Source: Proteromonas lacertae (lineage: Eukaryota; Sar; Bigyra; Opalinata; Proteromonadidae). From it: a DNA stretch of 64,000 bases. The position numbers were made by a program, and so were the translations under genes. The DNA is taken from assembly GCA_002245135.1 (NCBI GenBank), contig NGBS01000006.1, forward strand, positions 55,638 to 119,637. The letters are read 5' to 3'. Of the stretch, positions 38,729 through 63,734 are shown piece after piece (the first letter of the stretch is position 1; every line of letters begins with the position of its first letter). The notes under the pieces are model-generated. The model worked only from the letters and a program-made list of their open reading frames with translations, searched no databases and was not told the origin of the DNA.

Positions 38729-38826
38729 AACATTTATTGATTGTATTCTATTTAATTCGATATTTTGGGTGTTAATTTAGAGTATACCATTAATATTTCT
38801 ATTTCTTATAACTGCATTTGTTTATC

Positions 38827-41800
38827 TAGGCTTGGATTCTGTTTGCCAGAAACGATCCTTTTTTCTTTATTCTAGTTTTATACTTATGGAACAACTGTTT
38901 TATCAATTAAGATCTATCAGTGACTTAATCAAGTTACAAACCATCGATATGGAGAAAATCAAAAGTACTTTATTTGTTGTTTAAATCTTCTTCAGTATTA
39001 TCAAACGAAATAAGAGCAATCGAGAAGAATGAGACTCTGTCTCTATCAAATGCTGAGATTTTACATACAATATCAATAGAGCTTTACAATTTAGTTCGAA
39101 GTGAAATGCAAAAGTGTAATACACTGAATCGAATGAACTTTCTGATTGAATGTCGAATACTATCCTGTGAAATGTTGAATACAAGCACAAAATTCAATTC
39201 AATGAAGAGTTTAAGAAATGAAGTGATTAAAGCTTACTGTCGAAGTGGTATATCAATATTGAGAATAAACAATGTCAATATACGAGGAATATCATGCTAT
39301 GAGCGAGTATTGGAGATATTAGAAGAAAATGGTGGAATTGAGAGTATAATAACTGAAAAGAATGAAGATATGGAAATATGTTTAGAATCAATATATGAGA
39401 TGTTAGTCAGTTATATCGACTATATATCACGAGAAGAAAAGAATAATAAAGACAAACTGATAAACAATATAAAACTGATAAATACAATAATTTCCTATTT
39501 AAATGATAATAAGAATGAAGAAATATACAATTTAATGTATTTATTAATATTGTTTATTATATATAGATTTGGAATCTTAAAAGAATATCACAAAATGAAT
39601 CGATATAATGATGTGATAGAAATAGGTGAGATATTTTATTCAATGATAAGTAATAATTGTGATGATAATAAGAATATGAAAGTATTATTGCTATTAAGTG
39701 ATTGTTATATAATGAACAAAGATAAGAAAGCATTAAACTGTTTATATTTGTGTGAATATGAAAAATATGGAATTGGTATATATTTGATGATAAAATATAT
39801 ATGTTTTACTAAAACTATATCATTTTTATATATTTTTATTTATATTTTCTTTAATTTATATTATTTTTACAAAACCGATGAAATAGTGAAATTAATGGAA
39901 ATGTTATTGAATCATAATAGTAAAGAATATTCATTATGTTTAGATGCTTGTCATATGATATTAAATAATAATATAATATCTAAAGACAATAATGAATTAT
40001 ATTGGTATAATGAATTAAAAGAACATTTTATTGATCATTGTGTTGATATTAATTTAGAAATATTGGAAATACTTTTATCTAAAAATCCAATTCCATTAGA
40101 TGTAATGGAAATATTGAATGAATTTAAATCAAGTATTTTTATATCTATATATTGTTTATTGATTATTATTAAATAGATATTAATTCATTATCAGAATGTC
40201 AATTATCTTCAATATATAATCTATTATACAACACTTGTATATTGTATTATGAAAATAAACAATATAATGAATCAATAAATGTATATATATATATAAATAA
40301 ATATATAAATATATAATAGTGGTGTAATGAGTTATTGCATTTATTGAATAATAATAATAACAGTTATATTCCCTCCATATTAAGAATGTTATCTGATTGT
40401 TACAATGAAACACATAATGTGAATGAAGCCATTAATAAAGCCAAAGAATGTATAAAGATAGACAATACAATCAAAGTATAATGATTATTATATAATATAA
40501 ATAGTCTCATTTCTTATTATATCATATATATATAAACAATAATATTGATAGAATAAATATAAATGAAATGAAAGAATGTTTGAACAATTTAATGAATGCA
40601 AAAGATTATGATGTAAAATATTTATATTTATGTTGTGAAGAAGCCATTAAAAATAATAATATATCAATCTCCATAGAATCCTTAGAAAGACTGTTATATT
40701 TACATAATAATATAAAGATTGGTCCAATACTTCGATGTTTAATAGAATTATATAATAATAACCATATAAATGATGATAATAAGATATTACAATACTTTTC
40801 AAATGGATTAATGAAATTAGATAATATAAAAATAAAGAAAGAAGAAGAAGAAGAATATAATGAAAAGATAGAGAATGAGATAAAATCAATATTTGGAAAT
40901 ATGGAAGAGATTAATTGGATAGTTGGAATATTATGGAATAAAGGGTTATTATTGAAAGAAAAAGAGAATTATAAAATGAGTCATAAATACTTGAAATTAT
41001 GTTATGAATATAGTTGTTATTTACCTCCTTCAAATATACTATTATCCTTAAAGAAATCTTCCTTATTATTATCCTCAAGCCTATTATTTGAGACAATAAA
41101 TAAGAACGAAGAAAAGAAAGAAGAAGAAGAAGAAGAATATAAAGAAGTATTAAGAGAAATTGAAATATGTAAAAGATTATGTTTGAAATTAAAGAAACAC
41201 TTTGAGAATAATAAAAATGATAATTTGATAGTATTTGGTAGAAAAGAGAATATTTGCACAATAAATGAGAATATGTTAATATTAAATACAATCGAAATGG
41301 AATGTAATTTATATTTACATAATAATGATAATATTGAAGAGTTATTCAATGAATATATTGAATCAAGTACAATAATAATAAACCCAGAAATATTAGAATA
41401 TATCTCTGAAATAGCTAAAAATACCAATTCCAAACCAATAATATATAAAGTATATAAATATATATTATTATACATATTATTATTATTATTATTATTATTA
41501 TATAGAAATGCTTATCGTTATGTTTACAATATTTATATCAACAGAATCCAATAGATATAAAGTGTTTAAGTAGAATCTTAAGAAAATTATTATTACAAAG
41601 TGAAAACAAAGAAGAATTATACAAATGGCTTGAAGAAATCAATCAAATATGTGAAAATATAAAAGATGATGATTTTGATAATAGTGATTATGATTTTTAT
41701 ACGAGTATTAGTTGGAACAATGGAATAAAATATTTGAGATTAAAAGAGATAGAAAAGAGTGAGAAATTATTGAGTTTATCATTGAAATTCTTAGTAAAAT

Positions 41801-42370
41801 CTAAAGGACTACAAGTATATATTGTAATGTATATATATCGTATAGGCTTACAGTAATGAAATGAATGAGATCTACAGTAGAGTTCTAAGTGAAAGAGAAG
41901 ATTGTTGTTTACAACAACTGACTGAGATATGAATGATAATTAAAATCCTTATTATTGATATATTGATATAGATATTGTTTTGTTTTTTGTTGTTATTTAT
42001 TTCCATAAGAGAAAGAAGAGAGATTGTTGTTGATTAAAGAAAGAAGATGGATAAAATATTTCAGAATATCATATTTCAGTTGCAGATAAGAGTGAAATGT
42101 TCATTTTTGAGTTTTAGTTGTTTTTAATGAAATTCTTTCTTTGAATGAAACGACTATAATAACGAAAAACTCAGTTTTGTTTTTTAGGATTTTTAGAATG
42201 AAATTCTCAATTCTGTGTATGATTTGTATGATATGATGAATAGTCCTTGTGCTGATCTGTAGTATTGTTGGTGTTAGTGAAGCAGGCAGACACTTCTTCA
42301 CGAATGGAAGCATTTCTGAAAGAAAGAATAGTTCAAGAAGATTAAGTGATGTCGAATTAACAAAAATATC
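38827..42370 (+). repeat. Left arm of 3.5-kb near-identical inverted duplication
   Basis: Position x in this arm pairs with about 94123 - x on the opposite strand (94125 - x after a 2-base TA-repeat length change near 40290). Identity starts at the TAGGCTTGG of 38827 and ends at 42370, inside the surface-protein coding region. I noticed only a handful of differences across the arm (an Arg/Leu codon near 39601, a base near 40867, a base at 42331 and the TA indel). The arm holds one full ZIP4-like gene and the promoter plus first codons of the surface gene. Confidence 0.95.
38886..41932 (+). CDS. ZIP4: SPO22/ZIP4/TEX11-like meiosis protein, left copy
   Basis: Start ATG 38886 is in a short first exon, joined across a 31-nt intron (38962-38992) to the body. 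Further introns fall near 39550, 39770-39875, 40133-40176, 40278-40320, 40479-40508, 41452-41506 and 41814-41846. The product is about 870 residues of TPR-like helices. The second half has the family hallmark IVGILWNKGLLLKEKENYKMSHKYLKLCYEYS and a final SWNNGIKYLRLKEIEKSEKLLSLSLKFL block, and the section around 40530 (FLLYHIYINNN, then KECLNNLMNA) matches the TEX11/SPO22 repeat order. These proteins act in synapsis and crossover formation. The family call is by pattern, not by alignment. Low-complexity Glu runs are present. Confidence 0.7.
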
Positions 42371-45300
42371 ATTTGGAACTAGTACTGATGGATATTATAA
42401 TATAAAAGCCAGTTATTTATGTTCTTATGATAATATAGGTATAATCGACAGAACTAACTGTAAATTTTGTAAATTTGTATATACATATAAAGGAACATAT
42501 GATAGAACTAATCAAGAATATAAATTCAGTGATATTGTTCTTGATGAAGAAAAATCGTTATTCTATTTAGATTCTTCTATCGTAGCTGATTTACCGGAAA
42601 AAGAATACAAATACAGTGAACTGAAAACATCTACTGCAGCTGTACAATATGTGGAGAGTAAAAAATTACCTTTACCAGATTATGTTCATATACCCAGTGG
42701 AGAATTGATGTTGGAAGGAGACATTCGTGCACCATATTTTCAGACTTGTATATTATATCTAAATTATGAATATAACAATTATAGTGAATAATGAAGATGT
42801 GATGTATAGAATAGAAAATAGTCATTACAAAACATATAATGCAAAAATGGATAAAATGTATGGTTATAGAAAAGATACAAGACAATATTATGAGAGATAT
42901 GGTTTAGACAATAACATAACAATAATTGAAGTTCATGCAATGAACATGGAAAGAACAATATTATATGTTGCAAATAAGAATGAGTATGTCGATATGATTG
43001 AGGAATTTAAAATAGTTCAAAATGGTGATGAAGTAGAATCTGAAAGTGGATCACCTTTATATTGTTATACAGAAGAATGTGATTATGTTAGTTCACTAGT
43101 TGATGGTTGGGTTCAGTTCTATATTCGTACAACTTTGTCATTTAAAACAATGCCAAAAGAAGATGTAAGAAAAAACATTGATGCAGATATGAAAGCTATA
43201 AGAAAAGAGATTAGAAATTATTATAGAAGTAAAATTAGTAATACAAGAGAATTGAATAATTATGAAAGAGATTTAGCTGATGATATTGGTTATTATTATG
43301 AAGAAAAAGGTGAAAGTAATGATATTTATAACGCATATATAATATATACAAATCAACTTACAATATCAACGTATGAAATAGATGGTAGAGATAATGCAAA
43401 TAATTCAATAAAAGGTATAATAAAAACCAAATATACAATTCCTGATAATAAGATTATAAATCCTCAGAATGATTATGATTCCACTTCTACTGCTGAATTA
43501 GCAGATTATGAGAGTTGTAAAACACCAACTCTTTTATCGTATATATGTATATTATATTAAATTTTAGTAATGTTGAATCAGTATGTGGAGTAGATGCACA
43601 AAGTACTACTAATAGTTATATATATTCACTTCCTATTACTATTCAAATATTGGAAAATAGTATGATATTTACTGATGGTAGTAATACAAAAGAAGTAGAA
43701 TTAAAAGAGAAGAGTATAAATATATGTTTATATAAATAGATGCAGATGATCTTAGAATGATATTTGAGAAATTTTCAGTGAATACAATTCCAATACCATC
43801 TGAAAAATGTTATAATGGTAATATTATTGATATAAAACATAGTTTGGATATTAATATTACTTCAATAGATAATGAGTTATACTCATTTGTTAAAGCATTT
43901 GAAGATGGAAGTTATGGTTTTGGTATATCAACATCATCTATTTCTAGCAAAGATAAATATTCAGTATCTGAATCTAGGTATTTTAAATTCGATTATTATT
44001 CATTAACTACAGAGGATTTAAGCATTATTAATAAGGGCTATTCATATTTTACTTTCTACCATTCTCTTGTAGATGGTTTAGTTGATCTAATAGATTGTAA
44101 AAGTAATAATGATATTCAAATTCAAAAAGCATTAAATAATTACAATGAAAATGCATATTATATTGATAGAATATTTAATAAGCAATTACCAGGAGGAAGT
44201 GATAATCCAAATGATGATGATGATAATAATGGTAATGATGATAATAATGATGATAAAACAACCACAATAACAACCACAAAATTATTTATTCCTCCTCCAG
44301 TGTTACTATCATGTAAATTGAGTGATGAAGGATATATATTGATAATAGAATTTGATAAGAAATGTTTAATGAATGGAATAGAAGTAAATAGTATATTTAC
44401 TTGGAGTGATCCTCCATTTATAACATTTGATTCTTCAACAAGAATTGATATATTATTCTACAAATGGATAAATGATGAAACACTATATGCTTATTATAAT
44501 TCTACAACTGAAAGTATATCAGATTCTCCAAAAATGACACTTACAGAAGGATATATATATTCTGATTTAGATAGTATTTATTCAGCTAATGGTAGTTTAG
44601 CAATTACAACCAGACCTAAAGTTCCTAAAATATTGAATGGTGAATTTATTGATGAAAATATAATTGAAATTAATTTTGACATAGAAATCAAAGAAGGAAT
44701 TAGTATAAGTGGAAGAAAATGTAATGAAATTTTTAGTGATGAAACATTTGGTCCTTCATCAATGTGTTATTTATCATCATCGTTGAAAACAATAACAATG
44801 AAAATGTCCAATCCAATTACAATATTTCCAAATAATAATTTGACATTAATTCCAAATATACTAAAAAGCAGTAAAAAGCATATGGAAGGAAGTAAAGGAA
44901 CTATAAATCTGTCATTATCAGAATCATTTGAAACAGAATTAGAAGCAATAATCTCAATTCCTTCAATTGTTTCATATTGTTATGATTTTATAATGGATGG
45001 AAGTAGAAGTAGAGGTTCAAGTAGACCATTGATCTATCACTGGAGTTCTTCAAATGAAACATTAAATAATACAATATCCTCTTTAAATGAAGCAATGATA
45101 ATAATTCCAAAATATTTATTAGAAGGTGGACATTATTATGATGTAAAATTAGAAATCGAAAGTTCATTTGATCATAGCAATGAATCAAGTAATATAACAT
45201 TTTTTGTTGATTCAAATTTTGTATTAAATGTGAATATAGAAGGAGATAATAATCATTCAATATATACAAGTCAAAGTGAATATATTCGTGGAAGAGTCTC

Positions 45301-48300
45301 AGTATATCAATGTAACAAAAGTATTGAAATTCCATCAATTGAATATGATTGGTCATTAAAACATGAGAGTAATAAATCAGAAATTGATATATCAAAATAT
45401 AAAACCGATGATAAAACCAGATTATATTTTGATTCTCGTTCAATTCCATATGGTGATTATATTCTTACTTTGAATTCATCAGTTGATGAATTAGAATCCA
45501 ATTATTCAATAGAACTGAATGTGGAATTACCTTCATTAGAAATTTTAACATCATATCCTGCTTATTTAAGTCAAAATCAAAATGAAAGTATATATATTGA
45601 TTTATCCAATATGAATGATCCAGATAATGTAGATATTGAGTTTACTTATACATGGAATTGTATATTTAATAAGAGTGAAGATGATTATGATGAATTAGTT
45701 TCAAATTCAAATCCAAATTCAGAATCAGATTTAGATACTAAAATATTTAAAATACCAAGTAATAAATTAAAAATAGGGATTTATGAAATAACAGTTGAAA
45801 TAAATGGAACAGAAACAGAAAGATCAGTTTCCAAAACATTTATAAGAGATATAAAAGAAATACCATTTTCATTATATATTCAAAATCCAAAATCCAATTT
45901 AAGTATCTATAATCCTAAAGATATGTTTCAACTAATAAGTATAAGTTCAATCACTGAAAATGATAAAATAGAATATAATTGGAGTTATTCAAATGATGAA
46001 AATATAAATCCATTTATAGGTAAAAGAGATTATAATAAAGTGAATATAAGATGTGAGAATTTAAATCCATTAATTACTCATAAAATCAAATTAGAAGTAA
46101 CATATAAAGGTAATACAGTGGAAAGTTATTATGAATTTAGAATAAATGAAGGTCCATTATTTGGTTATTTATCTGTTTCAACATTGAACTATCAATTTGG
46201 TAATTATATTTCAATAACAACAAGTGGTTGGAAAGGAGAAGAACCATTTAGTTATAGATTTGGTGTGATAGTAAATAACTCAACTTATTATTTACAAGCA
46301 GTATATGGAAGAGGTAACAACTATTATGGAATATTACCATTAGGATCTAATCAATATAATTATAGTTTAAATCCAATAGTGTTTATAAAAGATCGATATG
46401 GTGTAATATGTAATACAAGTTTTGATAAAGAAGGAAATATAATCGAAATTTATTCTCCACCAATGCAATTAGATGATTTATCAAAAATAACTAGCGAATT
46501 AAAGAATGTAAGTGATGATTTGAAGAATGAACAATATTTCGATTATATATATTCAATGATAGAAGGAATTTCATCTCAGATGAAAGAAAGAAATTGTTCA
46601 GAAGATATAGGATGTCAAAATGGAGCTGAATGTTTAAATGGTCATTGTCAATGTTTGAATGGATTTTATGGTGAATTATGTGAAAATCGAATGCCAATAG
46701 ATGGTGGATTAAGTGTTAATTATAGTTATGGTGAATGTGATCATAAATGTGGATATGGTTTAAAACCGAAATGGAAAGAATGTAATAATCCTAAACCTGA
46801 ATATGGTGGAAAAGAATGTAAAATTGAGATAGAATATGAAATATGTATTGGTGAAGATAAATTAGAATGTGAAAATGAAAATGGAGGTTGGAGTAAATGG
46901 AGTGAATTAAGTGAATGTAATGCTTATTGTGACAATTATAATGGTAAAACAGTATATGGAATTCAAAGTAGAAATCGAAACTGCTCAGATCCCAAACCAT
47001 CCGGAAATGGAGCAAATTGTATTGGTGATGAGAATGAAATAATACAATGTTCCAAAGTATGTGAATCAGTGAATAAACTATGTCCAGGTGAATATATCTC
47101 AATGAATGGAACAAAAATTGGTAATGCTTGTAGTAATCATGGAAGTTGTATTATAAGTCGAGAAGGATGTAAAGAATATGAACCAAATTGTCATAGTAAA
47201 TGTAAATGTCTTGAAGGTTATGCTGGTGAAAAATGTGAATATAGTAAAAATGAATATGAAATTCGATTAGATTTAAACAAAGATTTATTAGAAGAGATAG
47301 TTGAATCTTCATCTAAAAATGTATTGACAAATGATGCAAGTGAACAACATTCTTCAGCCTTATTATCAGTGATAAATCCTCCAACTCAATTATTATCAGA
47401 AAATAAATCATTTTCAATGTCAATAATCAAATCTTCAATCAATTCATTAAAAGAGAATTCTTCATTTGAAATATCTTATGAATCAATGACAAATTATATA
47501 AAAGCGAGTTGTTTATTATTGAATGATGAATGGAAAGATCGAGATGAAAGTAATTCTAGATTGCTTGAATCATCATCTTCATCTTCATTAATTTCAACAA
47601 AGATAGGAGAAGAATTACCTGAATTATTTAAGAATATAAGTAAGATGCATTTGAACCAAGAAAAATCAATAATTCCATTAGAAGTAATAACTGATGTAGT
47701 TAGTTTAAAGTCAATAAAATATGATGGAAGTATCAATTTAAATGATATGGGAGATTCTGTTAATTTTCCTAATTCGATATTAAATGTTGATAGTGGAGAA
47801 GAAGCAAAAGAAATTTCAATAATTGATTGGTTAGATAATCCAAATAGTGATGATTTTGAATCAAGTAATAGAAGTGCAGGAGTAATCTCAATCTCAATAA
47901 TGGGTAAAGAAGAAGAAACAGAAAAGAAATTTAATGATGTGGAAAATGTAATATATTTCATTCAAAGAATAAATGATGATAGTGATTTAAGACATATTCA
48001 ATGTAGTTATTATAATAATAATGGTGAACTATCTTCGAAAGGATTAATAGTGATGGGAATAAGAAATGATGTAAATGGAAGTAAATTTGTGATATGTGGT
48101 ACAACTCATTTAAGTGATTTTTCAACTCGAAAGAAATCTATATTACCCAAAATGAATTTAGTAAATCCAATCAGTGATGCGAAATTATTAGGTAATTATA
48201 ATAAAGATAATATGATAGTTCCAATAATACTAGGAAGTGTAATATTAATCTGTATAATGTGTTGGCTTCTAACAAAATTCAAAGATTTAAATGAAATAAC

Positions 48301-49759
48301 TAAATTAGAAGAATATAAGAGTGATTATTTTAAACTAACAGGAAGATTAGATGAAGAAGAAACTGAATTTATAAAAAGTGAAAAGAACCACAAATCAATA
48401 ATGGACAAATATTGGCATGTATTGAAAGATGAGCATAGCTGGTTATCTCCTCAATTAGGTCCAACAGAGAATCTAATAGTAGTAAATCGAAATCAAAGAG
48501 TGTTATGTTTAACAGCTCAAATATTAACATCAACAGCAGTAAGTGCTTTATTCTTTGGAAATGATGCTGAAAATATATCTCAATTAGCAATGACTTCGAT
48601 AATATCTTCTTTATGTATGTTACCTGCTTCTTTATTAATTCCATATGTATATAAATATGCGAATGGTTATATATCTAAGAAAGCATCAAGAAAGACAATT
48701 CCAACATGGAAATTGATATATTTGAAGTTGAAAAGATCAATAAAAGAAATGAAGAAAAAGAAAAATCTACCCAATAATGGTAATGAAAAATATCAATTGA
48801 TATTGATAGTAGTTTCAATAATATTTGATATAGTGAGTGCTTTGTTCTTCATAATATTTGTAGCAATATTACCAGCTGGTTATATAACATTAGTTTTATT
48901 TTGTATTTATATAATATTTATAATTGAGACAATATCAATAATAATCGTATTAAATGAGAAGAAGAATAGATTATATATAATAATGATAACAGTGAATATA
49001 ATATTATTATTATGCTTTTTGATATTATTTATATTGTATATCCTCTATATGAGTGATTCTTCAGCAGCATATTCGATATGGAAAAGTAGTTATAATGGAT
49101 CATTAAAAGATTTAAATGAATATATCGAAAATAGTTTAGAATGTTGTGGTTATAATGAAATAGATGATTATAATACAACTGATTGTACATCTCCCAAGAT
49201 AATGGCATTAGGTGAACATACAGGATGTAAATCTTTATTAGTTGATAAATTCAACGAATATGCAGCACTTTGGTTAATATATTTTATGATAAGTATATCG
49301 ATGATAGTTATTAAAATATATTTAATATCTAAATTCGTAAAAATAAAACGAAACAAAATCAATCCAGATTCATTAACATTTGATAATATAACAACTGCAA
49401 CTTGTAAGTCTGAGGAAATAATTTCAAGAGATTGTATTGTTGCAACTGAGAAATTAATATGTTTTTTGAGATATCGAATCTTTAAAGTTCAATACAAAAG
49501 AAAAGTTGAATATTTACACTGGAAAAGACAAAGAAGAATAAGAGCTGGATTGATATTATTAGCTAACTCATTTGTATTTTTATATATTCTAATAATGGTT
49601 TATATAAATTTATTATATGGAGTAAAATTTAGTAGTGATCAAGCTACAGAATGGATAATAAGTTCAACAATCTCAATGATAATCGATGTAATAATTCAAG
49701 AACCTTCAATGATACTATTATCAACAGTAGTAACAACTACATTAGGATCAATATTCTAG
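42198..49759 (+). CDS. Giant REJ/polycystin-like surface receptor with tetraspanin-like insert
   Basis: I start at ATG 42198: a 27-nt intron (about 42217-42243) joins MKFSIL to FLVLICSIVGVSEA, giving a good signal peptide. Further introns (about 42750-42786, 43540-43568 and 43713-43738) lead into a 6-kb exon, about 2,550 residues in all. An N-terminal ectodomain of about 600 residues (shared with the gene at 49953) is followed by an Asp/Thr linker (44200-44290), a REJ-like region (44960-46450, with DGSRSRGSSRPLIYHWSS), an EGF domain (46595-46690), two TSP1-like repeats (46730-47065, GGWSKWSELSECNAYC), another EGF, a degenerate GPS-like CGTTHLSDFS (about 48095) and nine membrane helices. RNQRVLCLTAQILTSTAVSALFFG and the last pair (LYGVKF...WIISS) match polycystin-1 helices. 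Between them sit four helices with a CCG...C...GC loop as in tetraspanins. PLAT and the TRP channel part are missing. Confidence 0.75.
44960..46450 (+). other. REJ-like region of the receptor
   Basis: The segment opens with SYCYDFIMDGSRSRGSSRPLIYHWSSS, the Cys, DxSxSxG, RPL-x-Y-x-W pattern that starts REJ (receptor for egg jelly) domains. It continues as beta-rich units such as FTYTWNC and IEYNWSYS that resemble PKD/REJ strands. REJ regions occur in polycystin-1 family proteins and sea-urchin sperm receptors. Confidence 0.65.
48795..49335 (+). other. Tetraspanin-like four-helix insert
   Basis: Helices at about 48795-48875, 48885-48955, 48975-49050 and 49260-49330. The long loop between the third and fourth helix has ECCGYNE, then NTTDCTSP and TGCKS. 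CCG, a central P/S-C-type Cys and a GC are the disulfide signature of the tetraspanin large extracellular loop. The insert lies between the second/third and the final two polycystin-like helices. Confidence 0.65.
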
Positions 49760-49952
49760 ATTACATATAATGATTAAAATTTTTATTTTTATTTTTATAT
49801 TTGTTGTTGATATTTCGTTATTAATTTATTTTATTACATCTATTTTTATTATCAGTAAAAATATTTGGTTATGAAATATCATTTACATGGTTATTCTTTT
49901 GTCTTCCCATTCCATTAGCTATAATTTTGTTATTTGATTTCTATCAAAAGTA
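49760..49952. other. Junction between convergent surface genes
   Basis: About 190 A+T-rich bases separate the convergent stops of the large receptor and its short paralogue. I see no repeat shared with the arms, so this is the centre of the unique spacer. Confidence 0.6.
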
Positions 49953-51927
49953 TTAATTGATAGTTGATAATCTATATATCATTAAATTGTTTTCTATTAA
50001 CGTTTCTATAAATGTATGATAATTTATTAATAACGAATATTCAACAACAAATATAAAGTTATTAACTAGTTTACCTTCTGCAATTGCTTTATTGTCATTT
50101 TTAAGCTCTTCTGTTGTTGCAAATACATAAACAGCATCTCCTACAGCCTTATATTGTTTTACTTCAGATATTGTTTCATACTCAACTAATGATATCTCTG
50201 AATTGGAATAAACATATATCATTCCACCACCAAATATCAATTTACTAGATACATAACTTCTATCTCTTATTATGGTTATATTAGTTTCTTCCACTCCATC
50301 TCCAGAAAAACTAAAATCATAATTCAAACATTTGTCAGAAGGGATTGGAATTGTATTGAAGGTAGATTTTTCAATTATCATTCTTAGATCATTTATATCT
50401 ATTAAAATAAACATAAATTTATACTCTTCTCTTTTAATTCTACTTCTTTTGAATAATCTGAAATAGTAATTCTTAAACTCTTTTCCAATACTTCAATCCT
50501 GGTTGGAATACTATCCAACATTCTATTTATCTGCTGTACTGCATTTGATCCACATTTTAATTCAACATCTCTATTTATAAATATAATATTCAAATATACG
50601 ATAAAAGTGTTGGTGTTTTACAATTCTCATAGTAATTAAATTCAATAGTTGAAGAAGGTTCATAATCATTCTGAGGATTTATAATCTTATTCTCTGGTAT
50701 TGTATATTTACATTTTAATAAATATTTTTCACTTCTACTCATAGAATTATATGTTAAAATTGATAATATATTTGAATCTAATATGTAACTATGAAAATAA
50801 TCACTATCATCGCCATCTTCATAATAATATCCAACATCATTAGTTAAATCTCTTTCATAATTATTCAATTCTCTTGTATTACTAATTTTACTTCTATAAT
50901 AATTTCTAATCTCTTTTCTAATAGCTTTCATATCTGAATCAATGTTTTTTCTTACATCTTCTTTTGCCATAGGTCTAAATGATCCTAATATGCTTGTATA
51001 GAAATCAGCCCAACCTTCTTCTTCATTATACATACCAACATAGTCACATTCTTCAGTATAACAATATATTACACTACCTCTTGTATCTTTTATTTCATCA
51101 CCATTTTGAATTTTTTCTATGACAGAGATACCATCGATGAATATATTTTCATCAGCTATATAAGTGATCGCTCTAAAATAATCCATTGCATTTACAACTA
51201 TTACAGTAATATTATTATATATCCCTAATCCATCGAAATATTTCATAGATTCTTTACTATAACCATACATTTTATCCATTTTTGCATTATATGTTTTGTA
51301 ATGACTGTTTTCTATTCTATACATCACATCTTCATTGCTTACTATAATTATATATATATATATATATATACGACTGTAAGAGTCTCTATATTTATTATCA
51401 CTATCATCAAAAAAATATGACATATATGAATCTATTTCAACTTTTGTTATATATGGTGATTTTTTACTCTCCACATATTGTACAGCTTCTGCACATCCTT
51501 TCAATTCACTGTATTTGTATTCTTTCTCTGGTAAATCGCAGTAGATAGATCCATCTAAATAGAATATAGATTTTTCTTCATCTACAACATAATCACTAAA
51601 ACTGTAGGTTTTAGTTGTTTTATCATATGTTCCTTTATATGTATATACAAATTTACAGAATTTACAGTTATCTCTATCAATAATGGCCAAATTTTCATAA
51701 GAACATAAATAACCAACTTTTGCATTATTTCCAAACATAGATATAGCTCCAAACGATATTTTTGTTAATTCGACATCACTTAATCTTCTTGAAATATTCT
51801 TTCTTTCAGAAATGCTTCCATTCGTGAAGAAGTGTCTGCCTGCTTCACTAACACCAACAATACTACAGATCAGCACAAGGACTATTCATCATATCATACA
51901 AATCATACACAGAATTGAGAATTTCAT
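49953..51927 (-). CDS. Short secreted paralogue of the receptor ectodomain
   Basis: Start ATG 51927 mirrors the left gene exactly, including the 27-nt intron in the signal peptide and the sequence through VELTKISFG. After that the two proteins share the same exon plan but diverge: identical islands such as YKTYNAKMDKMYGY, KEDVRKNID-DMKAIRKEIRNYYRSKISNTRELNNYERDL (positions about 50990-50840) alternate with unrelated loops. Cys spacing is kept (FCKFVYTY, YCYTEECDY). It ends at 49953, soon after TIPIPSDKC, at about 600 residues. It lacks the REJ, EGF, TSP1 and membrane parts, so it is predicted to be secreted. A TA-repeat intron interrupts it at about 51341-51371. Confidence 0.75.
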
Positions 51928-54900
51928 TCTAAAAATCCTAAAAAACAAAACTGAGTTTTTCGTTATTATAGTCGTTTCATTCAAAGAAAGAATTTCATTA
52001 AAAACAACTAAAACTCAAAAATGAACATTTCACTCTTATCTGCAACTGAAATATGATATTCTGAAATATTTTATCCATCTTCTTTCTTTAATCAACAACA
52101 ATCTCTCTTCTTTCTCTTATGGAAATAAATAACAACAAAAAACAAAACAATATCTATATCAATATATCAATAATAAGGATTTTAATTATCATTCATATCT
52201 CAGTCAGTTGTTGTAAACAACAATCTTCTCTTTCACTTAGAACTCTACTGTAGATCTCATTCATTTCATTACTGTAAGCCTATACGATATATATACATTA
52301 CAATATATACTTGTAGTCCTTTAGATTTTACTAAGAATTTCAATGATAAACTCAATAATTTCTCACTCTTTTCTATCTCTTTTAATCTCAAATATTTTAT
52401 TCCATTGTTCCAACTAATACTCGTATAAAAATCATAATCACTATTATCAAAATCATCATCTTTTATATTTTCACATATTTGATTGATTTCTTCAAGCCAT
52501 TTGTATAATTCTTCTTTGTTTTCACTTTGTAATAATAATTTTCTTAAGATTCTACTTAAACACTTTATATCTATTGGATTCTGTTGATATAAATATTGTA
52601 AACATAACGATAAGCATTTCTATATAATAATAATAATAATAATAATAATATGTATAATAATATATATTTATATACTTTATATATTATTGGTTTGGAATTG
52701 GTATTTTTAGCTATTTCAGAGATATATTCTAATATTTCTGGGTTTATTATTATTGTACTTGATTCAATATATTCATTGAATAACTCTTCAATATTATCAT
52801 TATTATGTAAATATAAATTACATTCCATTTCGATTGTATTTAATATTAACATATTCTCATTTATTGTGCAAATATTCTCTTTTCTACCAAATACTATCAA
52901 ATTATCATTTTTATTATTCTCAAAGTGTTTCTTTAATTTCAAACATAATCTTTTACATATTTCAATTTCTCTTAATACTTCTTTATATTCTTCTTCTTCT
53001 TCTTCTTTCTTTTCTTCGTTCTTATTTATTGTCTCAAATAATAGGCTTGAGGATAATAATAAGGAAGATTTCTTTAAGGATAATAGTATATTTGAAGGAG
53101 GTAAATAACAACTATATTCATAACATAATTTCAAGTATTTATGACTCATTTTATAATTCTCTTTTTCTTTCAATAATAACCCTTTATTCCATAATATTCC
53201 AACTATCCAATTAATCTCTTCCATATTTCCAAATATTGATTTTATCTCATTCTCTATTTTTTCATTATATTCTTCTTCTTCTTCTTTCTTTATTTTTATA
53301 TTATCTAATTTCATTAATCCATTTGAAAAGTATTGTAATATCTTATTATCATCATTTATATGGTTATTATTATATAATTCTATTAAACATCGAAGTATTG
53401 GACCAATCTTTATATTATTATGTAAATATAACAGTCTTTCTAAGGATTCTATGGAGATTGATATATTATTATTTTTAATGGCTTCTTCACAACATAAATA
53501 TAAATATTTTACATCATAATCTTTTGCATTCATTAAATTGTTCAAACATTCTTTCATTTCATTTATATTTATTCTATCAATATTATTGTTTATATATATA
53601 TGATATAATAAGAAATGAGACTATTTATATTATATAATAATCATTATACTTTGATTGTATTGTCTATCTTTATACATTCTTTGGCTTTATTAATGGCTTC
53701 ATTCACATTATGTGTTTCATTGTAACAATCAGATAACATTCTTAATATGGAGGGAATATAACTGTTATTATTATTATTCAATAAATGCAATAACTCATTA
53801 CACCACTATTATATATTTATATATTTATTTATATATATATACATTTATTGATTCATTATATTGTTTATTTTCATAATACAATATACAAGTGTTGTATAAT
53901 AGATTATATATTGAAGATAATTGACATTCTGATAATGAATTAATATCTATTTAATAATAATCAATAAACAATATATAGATATAAAAATACTTGATTTAAA
54001 TTCATTCAATATTTCCATTACATCTAATGGAATTGGATTTTTAGATAAAAGTATTTCCAATATTTCTAAATTAATATCAACACAATGATCAATAAAATGT
54101 TCTTTTAATTCATTATACCAATATAATTCATTATTGTCTTTAGATATTATATTATTATTTAATATCATATGACAAGCATCTAAACATAATGAATATTCTT
54201 TACTATTATGATTCAATAACATTTCCATTAATTTCACTATTTCATCGGTTTTGTAAAAATAATATAAATTAAAGAAAATATAAATAAAAATATATAAAAA
54301 TGATATAGTTTTAGTAAAACATATATATTTTATCATCAAATATATACCAATTCCATATTTTTCATATTCACACAAATATAAACAGTTTAATGCTTTCTTA
54401 TCTTTGTTCATTATATAACAATCACTTAATAGCAATAATACTTTCATATTCTTATTATCATCACAATTATTACTTATCATTGAATAAAATATCTCACCTA
54501 TTTCTATCACATCATTATATAGATTCATTTTGTGATATTCTTTTAAGATTCCAAATCTATATATAATAAACAATATTAATAAATACATTAAATTGTATAT
54601 TTCTTCATTCTTATTATCATTTAAATAGGAAATTATTGTATTTATCAGTTTTATATTGTTTATCAGTTTGTCTTTATTATTCTTTTCTTCTCGTGATATA
54701 TAGTCGATATAACTGACTAACATCTCATATATTGATTCTAAACATATTTCCATATCTTCATTCTTTTCAGTTATTATACTCTCAATTCCACCATTTTCTT
54801 CTAATATCTCCAATACTCGCTCATAGCATGATATTCCTCGTATATTGACATTGTTTATTCTCAATATTGATATACCACTTCGACAGTAAGCTTTAATCAC

Positions 54901-55296
54901 TTCATTTCTTAAACTCTTCATTGAATTGAATTTTGTGCTTGTATTCAACATTTCACAGGATAGTATTCGACATTCAATCAGAAAGTTCATTCGATTCAGT
55001 GTATTACACTTTTGCATTTCACTTCGAACTAAATTGTAAAGCTCTATTGATATTGTATGTAAAATCTCAGCATTTGATAGAGACAGAGTCTCATTCTTCT
55101 CGATTGCTCTTATTTCGTTTGATAATACTGAAGAAGATTTAAACAACAAATAAAGTACTTTTGATTTTCTCCATATCGATGGTTTGTAACTTGATTAAGT
55201 CACTGATAGATCTTAATTGATAAAACAGTTGTTCCATAAGTATAAAACTAGAATAAAGAAAAAAGGATCGTTTCTGGCAAACAGAATCCAAGCCTA
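51755..55296 (-). repeat. Right arm of 3.5-kb near-identical inverted duplication
   Basis: Reverse complement of 38827-42370. Its outer border is the CCTAAATA at 55293-55300 and its inner border is in the coding region of the short paralogue. It reaches within about 60 bases of the Maverick left end. Confidence 0.95.
52193..55237 (-). CDS. ZIP4: SPO22/ZIP4/TEX11-like meiosis protein, right copy
   Basis: Second copy of the left-arm gene in mirror orientation, with the same first exon, introns and stop (ATG 55237, TGA 52193). The two predicted proteins differ at one residue that I can see (Arg to Leu after HKMN, near 54520). Both copies look intact. An A/T-repeat intron near 53800-53845 is two bases different in length. 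A recent duplication or continuing gene conversion explains this level of identity better than old duplication. Confidence 0.7.
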
Positions 55297-55373
55297 AATA
55301 CCTTAAAAACGTGAATATATTCATCATCAATACATAACATAATAATATATATTAAGGGCTACAGACCCAAAAT

Positions 55374-55409
55374 GGCTTGACGCTAGACCACGAGGCTTGA
55401 CGCTGGACC
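55374..55409. repeat. Tandem 20-bp repeat at the Maverick left end
   Basis: GGCTTGACGCTAGACC (55374-55389) and GGCTTGACGCTGGACC (55394-55409) are direct repeats with a 20-base period and one mismatch; a partial third unit (GAGGCT) follows. They lie in the outermost 60 bases of the element and are probably part of its terminal inverted repeat. Confidence 0.8.
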
Positions 55410-55479
55410 CGAGGCTAAAATTCGTATATTCGTTTCATTTTTCTTATTTTTCATTTTATTCAATAACCGTTCATTTGTA

Positions 55480-55563
55480 CAACGGTTTTAACGGTCGTTA
55501 TGAATCCGTTACATGTCAGTTACATAACTGACGTGTAACTGACGGTGTAACTGCCGTCCGTTG
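55480..55563. promoter_or_regulatory. Cluster of eight Myb-type YAACKG motifs
   Basis: TAACTG, TAACGG or CAACGG occur on one strand or the other at 55480, 55489, 55506, 55517, 55525, 55536, 55548 and 55558, eight times in 84 bases. Positions 55515-55532 form the palindrome GTCAGTTA-CA-TAACTGAC. The matches are direct readings; binding by a Myb factor is inference from the known consensus. Confidence 0.6.
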
Positions 55564-55701
55564 TAAACATTTGTTCAATTATGTTATAGAGACTGATATA
55601 AACCTTAGGAAGGCCATATACACCACCTAAGACTCGTTTTCACTTTCCCTTGTTTTCACTTTCCCTTTTCTTTTACTCATTTAGTTTTTGAAATGCGGAT
55701 T

Positions 55702-55825
55702 TCATAATCGATTTTCCTTTCCCTTTCTTTTTTTCACTTATTTACCTAGAGAAAAGTGATCGACTTCACTTTCCCTAAGTAAGGAAGTGAAAAAAAGAAA
55801 GGGTAAGAAGAATCGGTTATGGATT
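55702..55825. repeat. Large inverted repeat (hairpin) in the Maverick terminal region
   Basis: CCCTTTCTTTTTTTCACTT (55722-55740) pairs perfectly with 55786-55804, and the complementarity continues imperfectly outward to about 55702 and 55825 (CATAATCGATT against AATCGGTTATG). The 45-base loop itself holds a smaller stem (TTCACTT at about 55775 with AAGTGAA at 55786). Confidence 0.8.
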
Positions 55826-55942
55826 TTTTATGTTATTTTAAATAAACCCTTAAAAACACACAGTCTTCTTTTTATTTTAATTAATCTCTGTATTAGTATT
55901 TAAAATATATAATTATTTAATCATAATTAGATAAATTCATAT

Positions 55943-56377
55943 TTACTTACTTCTTTTTTTGATATCTGCATCCATTTTCACTCTAGCTGCTAAAGCATCA
56001 CATAATAAAGATAGTAATCCATTAACTGCGTAATCTAATTTGTTATCAATAAATAATTGATTATTCTCAATTAATTCTTTCTTAAATCTATTACCATCTT
56101 TTCTAATATTATCTAAATATGTGATAATTTCCAATCTTTTTTTCGTTGCATACTGATTACTATAATAATGCTTAACTTTGTCTAGTATAGCTTTTAACTT
56201 TGCTAGATTAGCTATACTCTCTTCTAAATAATATAAGAAATGAATTTCTGTATATCCATTTAATGCTAATTCTCTAATGCTATTAAAAACTTTGATCCAA
56301 AATGGTATTTCTTCTTGAACCATTGTTATATCTCTCTGATAAACAAAATGACGCATATTAATATAGTAAATAATCAA
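55943..56377 (-). CDS. Small helical Maverick protein, unknown
   Basis: ORF of 144 residues. The start could be 56377, 56356 or the ATG at 56323 (ACAATGG context); I keep the longest. It is predicted all-helical with a hydrophobic, charged periodic pattern and no Cys cluster, signal or membrane helix. It is divergent from the polymerase gene across a 175-base region with two palindromes. I do not recognise a family. Confidence 0.55.
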   Translation of the reverse strand: MIIYYINMRHFVYQRDITMVQEEIPFWIKVFNSIRELALNGYTEIHFLYYLEESIANLAKLKAILDKVKHYYSNQYATKKRLEIITYLDNIRKDGNRFKKELIENNQLFIDNKLDYAVNGLLSLLCDALAARVKMDADIKKRSK

Positions 56378-56408
56378 AAAAACAATAAATTAAAAGTAAA
56401 GTTAATTA

Positions 56409-56429
56409 TTTCTTTGATAATCAAAGAAA
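56409..56429. promoter_or_regulatory. Palindrome 1 in the divergent Maverick promoter
   Basis: Perfect inverted repeat with 10-base arms (TTTCTTTGAT) around a single central A. Confidence 0.7.
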
Positions 56430-56453
56430 AAATTTTAACTATATTATTACAAC

Positions 56454-56470
56454 TCCTTGATTATCAAGGA
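56454..56470. promoter_or_regulatory. Palindrome 2 in the divergent Maverick promoter
   Basis: Perfect inverted repeat with 8-base arms, TCCTTGAT-T-ATCAAGGA. The core CTTGAT/ATCAAG closely matches the CTTTGAT/ATCAAAG core of the palindrome 25 bases upstream. Confidence 0.7.
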
Positions 56471-56534
56471 ATTTCAATTAGCAAATCATATTAATACATT
56501 TGGAGTTATTTTATTGGGTATATTTATATCTTTC

Positions 56535-56548
56535 TCGTTTTTATAGGT
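56535..56548 (+). promoter_or_regulatory. Shared Maverick upstream motif (polymerase copy)
   Basis: TCGTTTTTATAGGT lies 4 bases before the polymerase ATG. The same 14-mer with one change (A for T at position 7) precedes the gene at 63394. A promoter or leader role is inferred. Confidence 0.5.
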
Positions 56549-56552
56549 TCTA

Positions 56553-59500
56553 ATGTATCCCAGCTATCCTCCTTGGTTTAATCCGTGGTATTACCAGTCT
56601 CCAAGTACTTCTATGCCTATTCAAGGCAATAGTCAAGCAAATCAGATTCCAATGTTGCCACAAAGTTATTTTAATCCCTGGATGAACCCTTATTTTACTC
56701 CAGCTATCCCACCACCACCACCATCCTATTACTATCCTCCACCATATTATGTAGGATCATTAAATCAACATCCACAACAACCTCAGCAGCAGCAGCAACA
56801 ACAACAACAACAATCAAACACTACTAGAAGTACTAATGGAACTAGTTTCATAACACCAAGAAGAAGAACAACATCTTCAATTGTAATTGATCAACCACCT
56901 CCTCCACCTCCAAAAATACAGCGATTAGCAGAAATCCCAGATGATTTATTGCCAGATACACCTCCTCCTGAAGATCCACCAACACTTTCACCAATTAATG
57001 ATGGACCAATTCCTGAAATACATCCTCAATCAACTACAGATGTTGAAAGAAGAAGGCAGCTACAGGAAGAAATGATTGCTCTGGATGTTGTTGATAATCA
57101 TCCAGAGCAGTTGAAAACAATGTCACATCCTGAAAGAGTAAGTTTGTTACAACTTGTAGAGAGAAGCAGTAGAGACTACGAACGTACCTACGAGAAGATT
57201 ATAAATGAAGAAGATGGAAAGAAACCTGAGGATTTGTTTACCCAAATCTGCAATGCATCAAGTGATTTTATGGTTACCATACGTAACTACATAAATGAGA
57301 AGAAATTTTCTTATATAAAAGTGTATTTCAGATTCAGAGTAGGTTATATAGGATCCGATGAACCAGCCAATGCACAAGTAAGTTGTTACAAAACATTCGA
57401 AACAGCGCCAGAAATTATAACTTCTCAAGAGTTAGGTACAATTGGTTCAAAGTTAAACAATGCCATGATTCGAGATTTAGGTTCAATTTTCAACACTGAA
57501 AGATCTGAACTAAAGTTCAGATATATTAAGAAGGTAGAGATGATACTGATGAAAAGTTCAATGGCTGCTGGATCCTCTACAGAAGATGACAACATAAAGT
57601 TACCAGCAAGTCTCAACAATAGAAAGTGCGTTATTAATTTAGTAAGATATAGTGAAGAATGTAAGAATATGTGCTTTTTATTTAGTGTGGCAGCTGGTTT
57701 ACACTATATAGAGTTCAAAGACCACCGTAACAGAGCAATGAAATATAAACAGTATGTAGACTTAATGGATGTAAGTAGTTTAAGGTTTCCAGTAGATGCA
57801 ATTAATGATAGTGACAGAATTGATGAGTTTGAACAGCTGAATCATATTACTATCAATATATTTACAATAGACCAGAATGAACCAATACCTTTATACGTTA
57901 CCAACATAGATAAAAGAAAACACTGGCCTCATGTGAACCTATTGATATATAAAGATCATTATATGGTAATAACAAAGTTAGAAGCCTTCCTATCACCTTC
58001 TGGTAAAAGGTGTCATAATTATTATACCAGATGCCAGTATTGTTTCTGTACTTTATCAACAGCTGATATGATAATTCAACATCAGAAAGAGAACTGTCAA
58101 TTACAAAAAGGAATCATTCGTCAATTTCCACCTCCAGATACCTTCATCAAGTTTCATAATTTCAAATACCAACAAATGATTCCTGTAGTATTATACTGGG
58201 ATACAGAAGTTATACAAGTACCAATAGATCCTTCTGAAGTAATACCTGGAGCCAAAGGAGCGTTTAAAAAACATATTCTCAGCAGTTGGTGCATTCACTT
58301 AAGTTCCAGGTACCCTGAAATCATCAGCGAAGAAACATTCTTCGGAAAACTGGAATTGCAGCAAGATCCACAAGATTTGGAGATGCAACTAGTAAAGAAG
58401 TTTGTTGAGATTCAAGATTATGTATTGAAGAAGTATGAAGATTATAAAAGTGGTGAATTGAAACCATTAGATGAAAGCACTTATATTCCAGCTCATAAAA
58501 ATATCGATAAATGTATGTGGTGCAATACACCCTTCAATGAAAACGACAGAAATAGAAGGCGAACAAGACACCATGACCATTTTACTGGTAAGTATATTGC
58601 AACCTTATGTTCAAACTGTAATTGGCATTGTAGTTTACAACATATGCCTATACCATGTTTGGCACACAACAGTAAAAACTATGACAATAACTTTATAATA
58701 CGCGGATTATCAAAGTTGGATAAAGAAATGGAAGCAAAATGGTACAATGATAATAATATTCCTATTCCAAATGATGATGATGATGATGATGAAGATAATG
58801 AAATTATACAATTACCAATACCTGAACCTGAACCTGAACCAATTGCTGATAGATTAGCTGAATACAATAGAGGTATTGAAGAAGAAAAGAAACAAGAACA
58901 AGAAGCAAAAACAGTTGATAATGATGAAGAAGATGCAGAAACAGAAGAAGATACTGATTCTGATTTGCCATTACCAGAAATACCACCAAATGCAATTGAA
59001 ATAGTTGATGAGAATGATCCAGCAAATGAAGAAGCATTTAATGAGTTGTATTACATGTTACATAGTAGAGATCATTACATATCACCAAGAACAGCAGAAG
59101 ATATTGGATTAGAAGAAGAGATGGGAAATATTATTGTTTCACAACCTAATTCAACAACAACTGAACAACAACAACAACAACAACCAACACCAAGAAAGAA
59201 GAAATATCATTCAAAACTATCTGTATTGTTAAAAACTGATAATAAGTTTTTACTTATCAAGTTCATGAAGTTACACTTTATAGATAGTTGTCAATTTATG
59301 CCAGCATCATTAGATTCATTAGTAAAGTCATTGAAAGTCGAAGCTGATGCACATGCTAATCATAAAGTACTCTTTAAACCAGTTTATCAATATGTAACAC
59401 AAACAAAAGAGATAAATGATTGTTTAAAAGAGAGAAACTGGACAGTGGATGATTTTATAGCTAAGTGGGGTTTACAGAAAGGTCATTTCCCCTACGAATA

Positions 59501-61440
59501 CGTAGATAGTATTCAAAAGTTATACCTTACTGATAAATTACCTAGAAAAGAAGATTTTAAGTCTCAATTAAAACAGAATGAAGGTATATCTGATTATGAT
59601 TATGAATCATCTCAAGCTCTCTGGACTCTATTGAAATGTAAAAACTTGATGGATTACAATATGTTCTATTTAGCAATTGATGTTCTTACATTATCTAGTG
59701 TATTTGATCACTTTAGGAATGTTGTATTTAGAACGTTTACATTAGATCCATGCTGGCATGTATCATGTCCTGGATTAGCCTGGAGTATATTCCTTAAAAA
59801 ATCCAAAGTGGATATAGAACTAATATCAGATCAAGACAAGTATGACTTTATGAGAAAAGGTCTTATTGGTGGAATTTCAATGATTGGATCTACGAGAAAA
59901 GCAGAAGCTAAAAATCATTACATGGATCCTCCATACTTTTCAGATCATACTTCTCATCCACCAAAACAAGAAACATATATTATGTATGTAGATTATAATT
60001 CTCTATATCCTTCTACAATGGCATCAATGAAATTACCCTATAAAGACTTTCAATGGGAACCAAATCCTCAATTAATTTATGATAATGTTATAACAAAATT
60101 AAAACCTTATGAGGATTTAAAAAGATCATTTATGGTAGAAGATCAGAAGCTGTGGAAGGATCCAGAGAGCAGAGGTTATATATTAGAAGTTGATATAGAA
60201 CCTCCAGATAATACAAATGGCAAGTTCTCAGAGTATCCTTTGTTTCCTGAACGAAAGATAATATTATATGAAGATTTGTCACCAACACAGAAGCAATGGG
60301 CCAGAGAATTAGGATTAGTAGCTGTCAACAAAAAGTCTGGCAAAGAAGTATTGAAGAATAATACAGCAAGAATAATATGTGATTTATCCAACAAGTATCA
60401 TTATGTTGTTCATTATCAATATCTAAACTATGCTGTGAAGTTAGGATATAAAGTAACCAAAGTATGGAGAGTAATTAGTTTTTGTGAAACAGATTATGCG
60501 TATGAATTTGTTATGCAATGCCATCTATTAAGAAAAGATGCAAAGAAGTTCCATCGAGATGCAGAAGCTGATACGTTTAAACTAATCCTGAATAGTGCAT
60601 ATGGTAAGACATGTGAGAATACTGAGAATAGATGTAGAAGTAGACTAGTTAATAATGAGGACCAATTCCTCAAATGTGTTAGCAATCCATACTTTACTGG
60701 TTTTGTTTCAATTGATGGTTGTGACTTGAGAGTGTGTAAGTTTAAAAAATACAAGTGTGCAATAGATAAGCCAAGCTATATTGGAATGTCCATTCTTTGC
60801 CAATCAAAGTATCTTATGGCAAAGTTTTGGTATGGACAATTATATCAAAAGTATAAACAAGGATTGCGTTTATTAATGACAGATACAGACTCTTTTATCT
60901 TTATGGTATGGACAGATGATATATACAAAGATATTGCTAATGATTTAAGTCTACAAGGTTGCATGGATACTGGTAATATTAATTGTGATTATCTTAAAGA
61001 GAGAGGTATTCGTTATCAGAACTATCAAAGAACAGGTGAACTGAATTTACTTAAAATGGAAGAGAACAAAAGTGATCAATTATATACAATAACAAAATTC
61101 TGTGGATTGAAAGCAAAGATGTATGCTTATGAGAAGCAAAGAGTGGATGGATTTACGCATTTAAAGGTGTCTGATAGCAGAGCAAAAGGCGTAACTAAAG
61201 GTTTCAGAATAAAGACTTGTGACTATGATTACTACAAGAATATCTTAGAAAGTAAAGAACTAAGTAAAGTTTATGTTAATCAATATAGTTTCAGAAGTGC
61301 AAAACAAGTAGTATACACAGTTAAACAACCAAAGTTAGCTTTTACAATCTTTGATATAAAGAGATTTTACTTGAATGTTTTAACTTCAATTCCTTATACT
61401 ATAAGTCGCCCACCACCACCAATGTTTACAGATATTGTCG

Positions 61441-61476
<36 letters not shown>

Positions 61477-61508
61477 TTATTAATATTGATGAAAATAGCA
61501 TTAATTAG
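56553..61508 (+). CDS. polB: Protein-primed DNA polymerase B of Maverick
   Basis: Intact single-exon ORF of 1651 residues. A Pro/Gln-rich N-terminus (about 160 residues) leads to the Maverick-specific region with ECKNMCFLFSVAAGLHY and the CQYCF...HQKENC zinc element (about 58030-58095). The 3'-5' exonuclease shows VLYWDTEV (Exo I, 58190), a CMWC...HDHFTGKY...CSNCNW zinc element, and HNSKNYDNNFI (Exo II, about 58660). A 170-residue acidic, Pro-rich and poly-Q insertion (58740-59190) is unusual. The polymerase core has MYVDYNSLYPS (motif A, about 59980), LILNSAYGKT (motif B, about 60580), LLMTDTDSF (motif C, about 60870) and GLKAKMY (KxY, about 61100). All catalytic Asp residues are present. 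It should replicate the element from a terminal protein. Confidence 0.95.
58740..59190 (+). other. Acidic low-complexity insertion in polymerase B
   Basis: Between Exo II and the following conserved KLHFIDSCQFM block lies about 150 residues of Asp/Glu/Pro-rich sequence with poly-D, PEPEPEP and poly-Q tracts. Related polymerases usually have a short link here. The composition matches that of host loops in this window. Confidence 0.6.
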
Positions 61509-61567
61509 AATAAAATGGATATATTCAATATATTTGTGTATGCTTTTACTTTTGTGTTTTTCTTCTT

Positions 61568-62859: not shown

Positions 62860-62863
62860 TTAA

Positions 62864-63299: not shown

Positions 63300-63368
63300 G
63301 AATTCTTAAAAAATGTAACGAAAATGCCAAAGATCGCGAAACGAATAAATTCGTATTTCTTTTATTTT

Positions 63369-63382
63369 TCGTTTATATAGGT
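63369..63382 (+). promoter_or_regulatory. Shared Maverick upstream motif (second copy)
   Basis: TCGTTTATATAGGT, 11 bases before ATG 63394, is the near-identical partner of 56535-56548. Confidence 0.5.
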
Positions 63383-63393
63383 ATCAAATAACA

Positions 63394-63657: not shown

Positions 63658-63734
63658 AAGAAGTAATGCCTATACTAAATATTTTTAAAACCTCATAAAG
63701 ATTAGATAATAATAATAATTAATTAATTTTTTTT

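Follow-up and report, generated by a model that had tools for sequence, protein, structure and literature searches.

A palindromic locus with ZIP4/SPO22-like genes and variable surface-protein genes in Proteromonas lacertae: a candidate recognition-receptor locus

In Dictyostelium, allorecognition relies on tgrB1/tgrC1, polymorphic surface receptors whose locus undergoes rearrangement and intragenic recombination, with partial copies close by proposed to supply new segments (PMC12324515, preprint). MTA of Tetrahymena carries a type-specific segment that is on average 42% identical between types (PMC3608545), and in the human Y palindrome P6 the arms are kept alike by arm-to-arm conversion, which is far commoner than inversion (PMC3723533). 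In the present work, a palindromic locus of Proteromonas lacertae was analyzed. It lies in a stretch of 64,000 nucleotides (hereafter, the window) forming the right end of contig C43 (NGBS01000006.1, positions 55638-119637; assembly GCA_002245135.1, 50.2 Mb in 1,181 contigs). Two inverted arms, each with a ZIP4/SPO22-like gene, flank two convergent genes (gene 1 and gene 2) with a variable extracellular domain (N-domain) that starts inside the arms. The interpretation favored here, with moderate confidence, is that of a recognition-receptor locus: an inverted duplication whose arms are homogenized by gene conversion and whose variable ectodomains begin within them. If true, this would be a small natural system where the constant 5' part of a receptor gene lies in the arms and the variable part at their inner edge, with homogenizing conversion versus diversifying selection readable from one 16-kb locus.

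Among the known systems, tgrB1/tgrC1 appears to be the nearest in logic and Tetrahymena MTA/MTB in architecture, membership in neither being claimed. With the former (PMC12324515), the locus has in common surface-receptor genes, a recombining region, and a partial copy nearby. However, the tgr genes encode TIG repeats, and tgrB1/tgrC1 form a divergent pair with a shared promoter, whereas here the N-domain has no Pfam match above the cut-off, the genes converge, and there are long inverted arms with a ZIP4-like gene in each. As in MTA/MTB, a variable segment is joined to a nearly invariant membrane part (PMC3608545); the Tetrahymena genes form head-to-head pairs that programmed somatic deletion completes, whereas those of P. 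lacertae are complete and convergent, and no programmed rearrangement was seen. Apparent homogenization of the arms by conversion is a likeness to P6 (PMC3723533), from which the locus differs in that near-identity stops within the coding sequence of a variable ectodomain. As for the PKD1/REJ receptors, such as sea urchin SpREJ (PMC1934368), gene 1 contains the REJ domain of that family (74 bits, cut-off 25) and several transmembrane (TM) segments. For gene 1, Pfam gave no match to PLAT or GPS at E up to 1, and the N-domain was found in two fusions only, with the gene 1 body and with a PH-domain receptor encoded elsewhere (the second locus). No comparable arrangement was found in a literature search for ZIP4/SPO22 with mating-type loci, judged by the titles listed, or in searches of open-licence papers, judged by listed titles and abstract starts.

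Inverted arms and their gene content

The initial annotation, made from the letters of the window, had proposed an inverted duplication with two near-identical 3.5-kb arms. This duplication is real; its outer ends agree with the proposal to 4 bp or less, and over 3,548 columns the arms are separated by 4 substitutions and one 2-bp gap, an identity above 99% as in gene-converting palindromes. The 9.4-kb spacer, taken to be unique DNA, is not wholly so, since inverted homology runs inward to 43811/50327, approximately 1.4 kb at each spacer end. This inner part is a mosaic of 48-98% identity per 60 bp, with a 75-base exact run within the diverged N-domain part. The near-identity of the arms ends abruptly at approximately 42371/51754, inside coding sequence at about codon 49. 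The original inverted duplication would have had arms of approximately 5.0 kb and a spacer of approximately 6.5 kb.

Each arm was correctly predicted to carry an intact meiosis-type gene together with the promoter and signal-peptide exon of a surface gene. The ZIP4-like gene is open across its eight exons; its introns were placed by hand, the second being uncertain. The Pfam SPO22 match of the encoded protein (residues 376-630, E 2e-5) scores 24.7 bits, just under the curated cut-off of 27.5. Six of the eight exons are identical between the right and left copies, and two have one substitution each. The longest exon matches the genome at three places, namely the two arms and contig C176, which holds a second right-arm copy; contig C44 carries the outer part of a right arm. 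One relative of this exon was detected in an outside protein collection. The 265-bp intergenic stretch, presumed to contain the promoter, and the signal-peptide exon show no difference between the arms.

Misjoins commonly arise at inverted repeats of high identity, and contig ends fall inside the arms and inside the Polinton/Maverick-like elements considered below, as would be seen if the palindrome were an assembly artefact. However, C121 and C201 both repeat the junction of gene 2 with the right arm, C176 and C44 both contain the right arm together with its outer flank, the inner homology, at approximately 80%, cannot be an echo of read mapping, and matching 6-bp target-site duplications accompany both Polinton insertions. 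With four contigs (C121, C176, C201, and C44) overlapping the locus, it is not a lone chimeric join, and an artefact is considered extremely improbable.

Two haplotypes and exchange between the arms

On sequence grounds, contigs C43, C44, and C654 are assigned to haplotype 1 and C121, C201, and C176 to haplotype 2. C121 aligns with window positions 41496-52066 at 99.7% before running into a Polinton-like element (element B), while C176 emerges from such an element, aligns with 52056-55345 (99.85%), and continues into ordinary genes. The element ends on C121 and C176 carry inverted terminal repeats that match each other over 206 bp at 91%, and both adjoin the target-site duplication CTGAAA. Another element (element A) begins within the window; its far terminal repeat, next to the target-site duplication CATAAC, was found on C654. 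Past this point, C654 and C176 have the same flank, without any substitution and with a single 22-base gap over 1,497 columns. C44 was placed in haplotype 1 because element A and the base at 39602 are in common, although 11 substitutions and 14 indels separate it from the window over 10,300 columns. The bridging of the haplotypes across the Polintons is inferred from the target-site duplications: for haplotype 2, the contigs cover the element ends and the right flank, and for element A likewise its two ends. The flank beyond gene 2 and the right arm is the same in the two haplotypes, giving a single spacer orientation.

Over 10,574 columns, 18 substitutions and 10 short indels distinguish the two haplotypes. 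Nine of the ten indels fall within the first 2 kb of C121; these are probably sequencing errors, because C121 and C201 differ by indels alone (10 indels, 0 substitutions, 6,913 columns). Ten of the 18 substitutions represent one cluster of five single-nucleotide polymorphisms (SNPs) within 13 bp, counted in both arms. The bases at positions 42341, 42345, 42346, 42350, and 42353 are A,A,G,T,C in both arms of C43, whereas they are G,T,C,C,T in both arms of C121 and in the single arm present on C201; one cluster codon is AGT versus TCT. Over the 313 bp comparable in all four arms, the right-arm differences (5/5) coincide with 5 of the 7 left-arm differences (hypergeometric 9e-10). The cluster is common to both arms in cis, which implies arm-to-arm transfer after the haplotypes parted, whatever its direction. 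The comparison in which arms of one molecule are more alike than alleles covers this cluster. A second mirrored site, 42467/51658, shows swapped alleles (T/C versus C/T) and is weak alone. In addition, 2 of the 2,733 ZIP4-like coding bases differ between the arms, in contrast to the adjoining N-domains of genes 1 and 2, for which synonymous divergence (dS) is 0.47 and nonsynonymous divergence (dN) 0.27 over 492 codons. Arm-to-arm gene conversion is supported by these comparisons.

The cluster has the appearance of a patch derived from an old copy that had diverged. A search of the whole assembly for the haplotype-2 motif with up to 2 mismatches returned only three places, all in haplotype 2, and an external donor was rejected, none being present beyond these three.

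In the initial annotation, the geometry was viewed as a switch resembling mating-type or antigen-switching loci: recombination between the arms would flip the spacer, and each surface gene would receive the promoter of the other. Near-identical inverted arms with gene starts inside them are compatible with this, and there is evidence that the arms exchange sequence; the proposed recombination is supported as gene conversion, by the five-SNP cluster, and unsupported as spacer inversion. As the promoters are identical, each gene would have an unchanged promoter sequence in front of it after an inversion, and exchange would alter nothing in the intergenic stretch or the signal-peptide exon. Instead of both spacer orientations, the two assembled haplotypes show one, with gene 2 adjoining the same right flank when bridged via the Polintons and their matching 6-bp duplications; with two chromosomes, a rare inversion is possible. 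Moreover, the right-arm variants at 38826, 40282-40283, and 40867 occur in all covering right-arm copies (3/3, 3/3, and 2/2, respectively), unlike position 39602, which varies among right arms. A lack of inversion is no surprise given that conversion outnumbers inversion in human Y P6 (PMC3723533). The promoter-exchange switch was consequently rejected as the principal interpretation, with identical promoters and one orientation in two haplotypes, and it is regarded as very unlikely.

A 141-bp segment at the 3' end of gene 2 has an inverted copy (98.6%) just outside the right arm in both haplotypes (C176:9410-9550, C654:9696-9836). The pair bounds gene 2 plus the right arm and is perhaps the scar of a staggered-break inversion. 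Two histories may fit the arms, either an old duplication homogenized on its outer side or a young duplication joining two old N-domain variants; both need arm-to-arm transfer.

The inverted 141-bp copy also suggests a plain rearrangement footprint, as would suit a neutral palindrome, young or maintained by conversion, that has no use and whose inner edge is merely straddled by a fast-evolving surface gene. Conversion between long inverted-repeat arms is known elsewhere, for example, in human Y P6 (PMC3723533), and the ZIP4 copies give no reason for their pairing with a receptor. Such a palindrome fails, however, to explain the sharp identity edge in coding sequence near codon 49, or why the same N-domain forms the hypervariable island of the second locus. 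Neutrality is a possible but doubtful account.

The variable N-domain and the recognition interpretation

Gene 1 encodes a signal peptide, an N-domain of approximately 500 amino acids (aa), a linker, and a body with the REJ domain, a TSP1 match (21.9 bits, cut-off 21.6), an EB/EGF-like stretch under the cut-off, and TM segments. The REJ-type protein beside a ZIP4-like gene thus is present as initially annotated. An HLS motif, noted by eye in gene 1, may be part of a GPS-like site. The structure model of N-domain exon 3 is poor (mean predicted local distance difference test score, pLDDT, 45; predicted template modeling score, pTM, 0.35). Gene 2 faces gene 1 and has the same signal peptide with a truncated N-domain; its product would be 597 aa long if one further possible intron is counted. 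No TM segment was detected in it past the signal peptide by hydropathy (best 19-residue window 1.33, threshold 1.7). The placement of each gene body in the spacer is thus right for gene 1 and wrong for gene 2, which at 620 aa has neither body nor TM segment. AGH, the lone Pfam match in the gene 2 frame, was discarded as being at chance level (E 0.064).

The C-terminal part of gene 1 (window 43757-49759) belongs to a large family with at least 39 matches on 22 contigs, and the N-domain was not found on its other members. Several matches of this multi-TM family hold stop codons, which are maybe introns or broken copies. Two genome-wide searches with the N-domain gave nine matches each, all on five contigs that represent two loci: C43, C121, and C201 for the palindrome, and C1155 and C563 for the second locus. 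Four distinct N-domain variants are assembled, and these searches revealed no large archive of silent N-domain cassettes. In the outside protein collection, three relatives of the N-domain were found, and four with a profile. Two of them (P0002 and P0003) are identical across a stretch of 155 aligned residues, beyond which they agree at only 49 of 105; judged by sequence, this is the same mosaic behavior.

At the second locus, a comparison covering approximately 12.7 of the 19.4 kb of contig C563 shows collinearity with C1155:186.3-205.7 kb at either end as well as in the middle. The ends differ by 3 mismatches in 1,476 columns and 0 in 1,575, and 37 of 4,846 and 31 of 2,850 sites differ beside and behind the variable block (0.8-1.1% next to it, 0-1.1% overall outside). 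The first part of the N-domain differs at 6 of 380 sites and the rest at 395 of 1,563 (25.3%). Its first ~120 codons hold 0 synonymous and 6 nonsynonymous changes; at codons 200-300, dS is 1.0-1.3, matching the divergence between the two loci (0.97-1.03 overall). The two N-domains have 338 of 484 amino acids identical and are followed by a body that combines a PH domain (26.3 bits, cut-off 25.1) with a single TM segment. Such a pattern would be expected of a balanced recognition polymorphism if the contigs are alleles, and diversity that is raised adjoining the block and falls outward is what balancing selection on alleles would give. Of the recognition or mating locus tentatively suggested in the initial annotation, recognition gains from this hypervariability between two collinear contigs.

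According to the favored recognition-receptor interpretation, the unit duplicated in inverted form would have comprised the ZIP4/SPO22-like gene together with the 5' half of the gene for a surface receptor, and arm-to-arm conversion would maintain the palindrome. In the sequence, the outer 3.5 kb (ZIP4 copies, promoters, and signal peptides) is nearly identical, and the extracellular N-domains, starting within the arms, have diverged as a patchwork. The N-domain may be a recognition module under diversifying or balancing selection, with gene 1 as the putative receptor and gene 2 as a secreted partner or a donor in cis of N-domain segments. Conversion in the palindrome could shuttle segments between genes 1 and 2 and so yield new specificities. 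We infer the allelic state of the second-locus contigs, balancing selection, receptor function, and the roles of gene 2 and the ZIP4-like gene from sequence; the weakest steps are a use in self/non-self or mating recognition and the status of the ZIP4-like gene as a duplication passenger with no part in a switch. A more specific version, put forward only tentatively, is two-locus self/non-self (mating or kin) recognition, in which the N-domain would be carried on REJ/TSP1/multi-TM and PH-domain receptors. The palindrome would then be a specificity generator, its body-less gene 2 feeding the receptor in cis under a fixed promoter and signal peptide.

Several points weigh against the recognition-receptor interpretation. 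The case for conversion rests mainly on one 13-bp cluster and one mirrored site with swapped alleles, in two haplotypes only, and the left cluster copy of C121 lies in its error-prone first 2 kb, which holds nine of the ten uncorrected-looking indels. Rather than alleles, C563 and C1155 may represent recent segmental paralogues. The palindrome N-domains are nearly identical between haplotypes, high diversity between putative alleles being evident at the second locus only, and whole-domain dN/dS is below 1 (0.58 and 0.59; second locus 0.59). HAP2 was not found, in a search in which the control likewise gave no match and which is uninformative.

Hypervariable ectodomains would equally suit variation against a host, predator, or virus in place of self/non-self recognition. 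Surface receptors can serve as viral entry points, and two different Polintons are inserted within 3.3 kb in the two haplotypes. However, two loci with four assembled N-domain variants and no large silent repertoire argue against an arms race, and the two-variant island with raised adjoining diversity looks like balanced alleles; this alternative is judged unlikely.

Feature coordinates, Polinton-like elements, and neighboring genes

Table 1. Coordinates of features of the palindromic locus in the window.
Feature	Positions	Strand	Remark
Left arm, near-identical part	38823..42370	+	
Right arm, near-identical part	51755..55300	-	mirror of left arm
Left arm, inner diverged part	42371..43811	+	mosaic
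Right arm, inner diverged part	50327..51754	-	mosaic
ZIP4/SPO22-like gene, left copy	38886..41932	+	8 exons, 910 aa, open
Left ZIP4-like exons	38886-38964, 38996-39802, 39887-40132, 40177-40280, 40320-40475, 40505-41449, 41506-41814, 41846-41932	+	
ZIP4/SPO22-like gene, right copy	52193..55237	-	mirror of left copy
Intergenic stretch, presumed gene 1 promoter	41933..42197	+	265 bp, same in both arms
Intergenic stretch, presumed gene 2 promoter	51928..52192	-	265 bp, same in both arms
Gene 1	42198..49759	+	signal peptide (by eye and hydropathy), variable N-domain, linker, REJ, EB/EGF-like, TSP1, 7 hydrophobic segments
Gene 1 exons	42198-42216, 42244-42747, 42785-43538, 43568-43713, 43740 on	+	
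Gene 1 REJ domain	45329..46417	+	
Gene 1, seven hydrophobic (TM) segments	48215..49606	+	hydropathy
Gene 2	49953..51927	-	same signal peptide and N-domain, 620 aa, no body
Gene 2 exons	51927-51909, 51881-51372, 51341-50600, 50570-50425, 50398-49953	-	
Gene 2 3' end, 141 bp	49858..49998	-	inverted copy just outside right arm
Five-SNP haplotype cluster, left arm	42341..42353	+	all synonymous
Five-SNP haplotype cluster, right arm	51772..51784	-	mirrored positions
Polinton B target site CTGAAA	52061..52066	+	occupied in C121, C201, C176; empty in window
Polinton A target site CATAAC	55333..55338	+	C176 is the empty site
Polinton/Maverick-like element A	55339..64000	+	DNA_pol_B_2 match, further open reading frames; cut by contig end

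Two different Polinton/Maverick-like elements are thus inserted 3.3 kb apart, one per haplotype, each with an empty site in the other; both insertions are polymorphic and so probably recent. Element B (C121 10570-18672; C176 1-5972) contains a Pox_A32-like packaging ATPase at the cut-off and a weak integrase match. Its open frames of 479 aa and 325 aa, which have no Pfam match, are presumably capsid proteins, to judge by their size and order.

The window has a GC content of 26.9% and is eukaryotic by gene content and introns, the latter being 26-84 bp long in the modeled genes. In PDB comparisons, a myosin head matched 7kch_A best, ahead of chains of Dictyostelium myosin 2, and actin was closest to Dictyostelium chains by a margin of 1-2 bits, neither result being decisive for affinity. 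Very short introns were observed at 42217-42243 and 51882-51908 (27 bp), and the eight N-domain introns of the palindrome locus measure 26-37 bp. In addition, EGF_2 modules were detected in two adjacent open reading frames on the plus strand, at 19003-20301 (below the cut-off) and 20586-23000 (above it), which represent a further surface or secreted protein or proteins approximately 16 kb from the palindrome.

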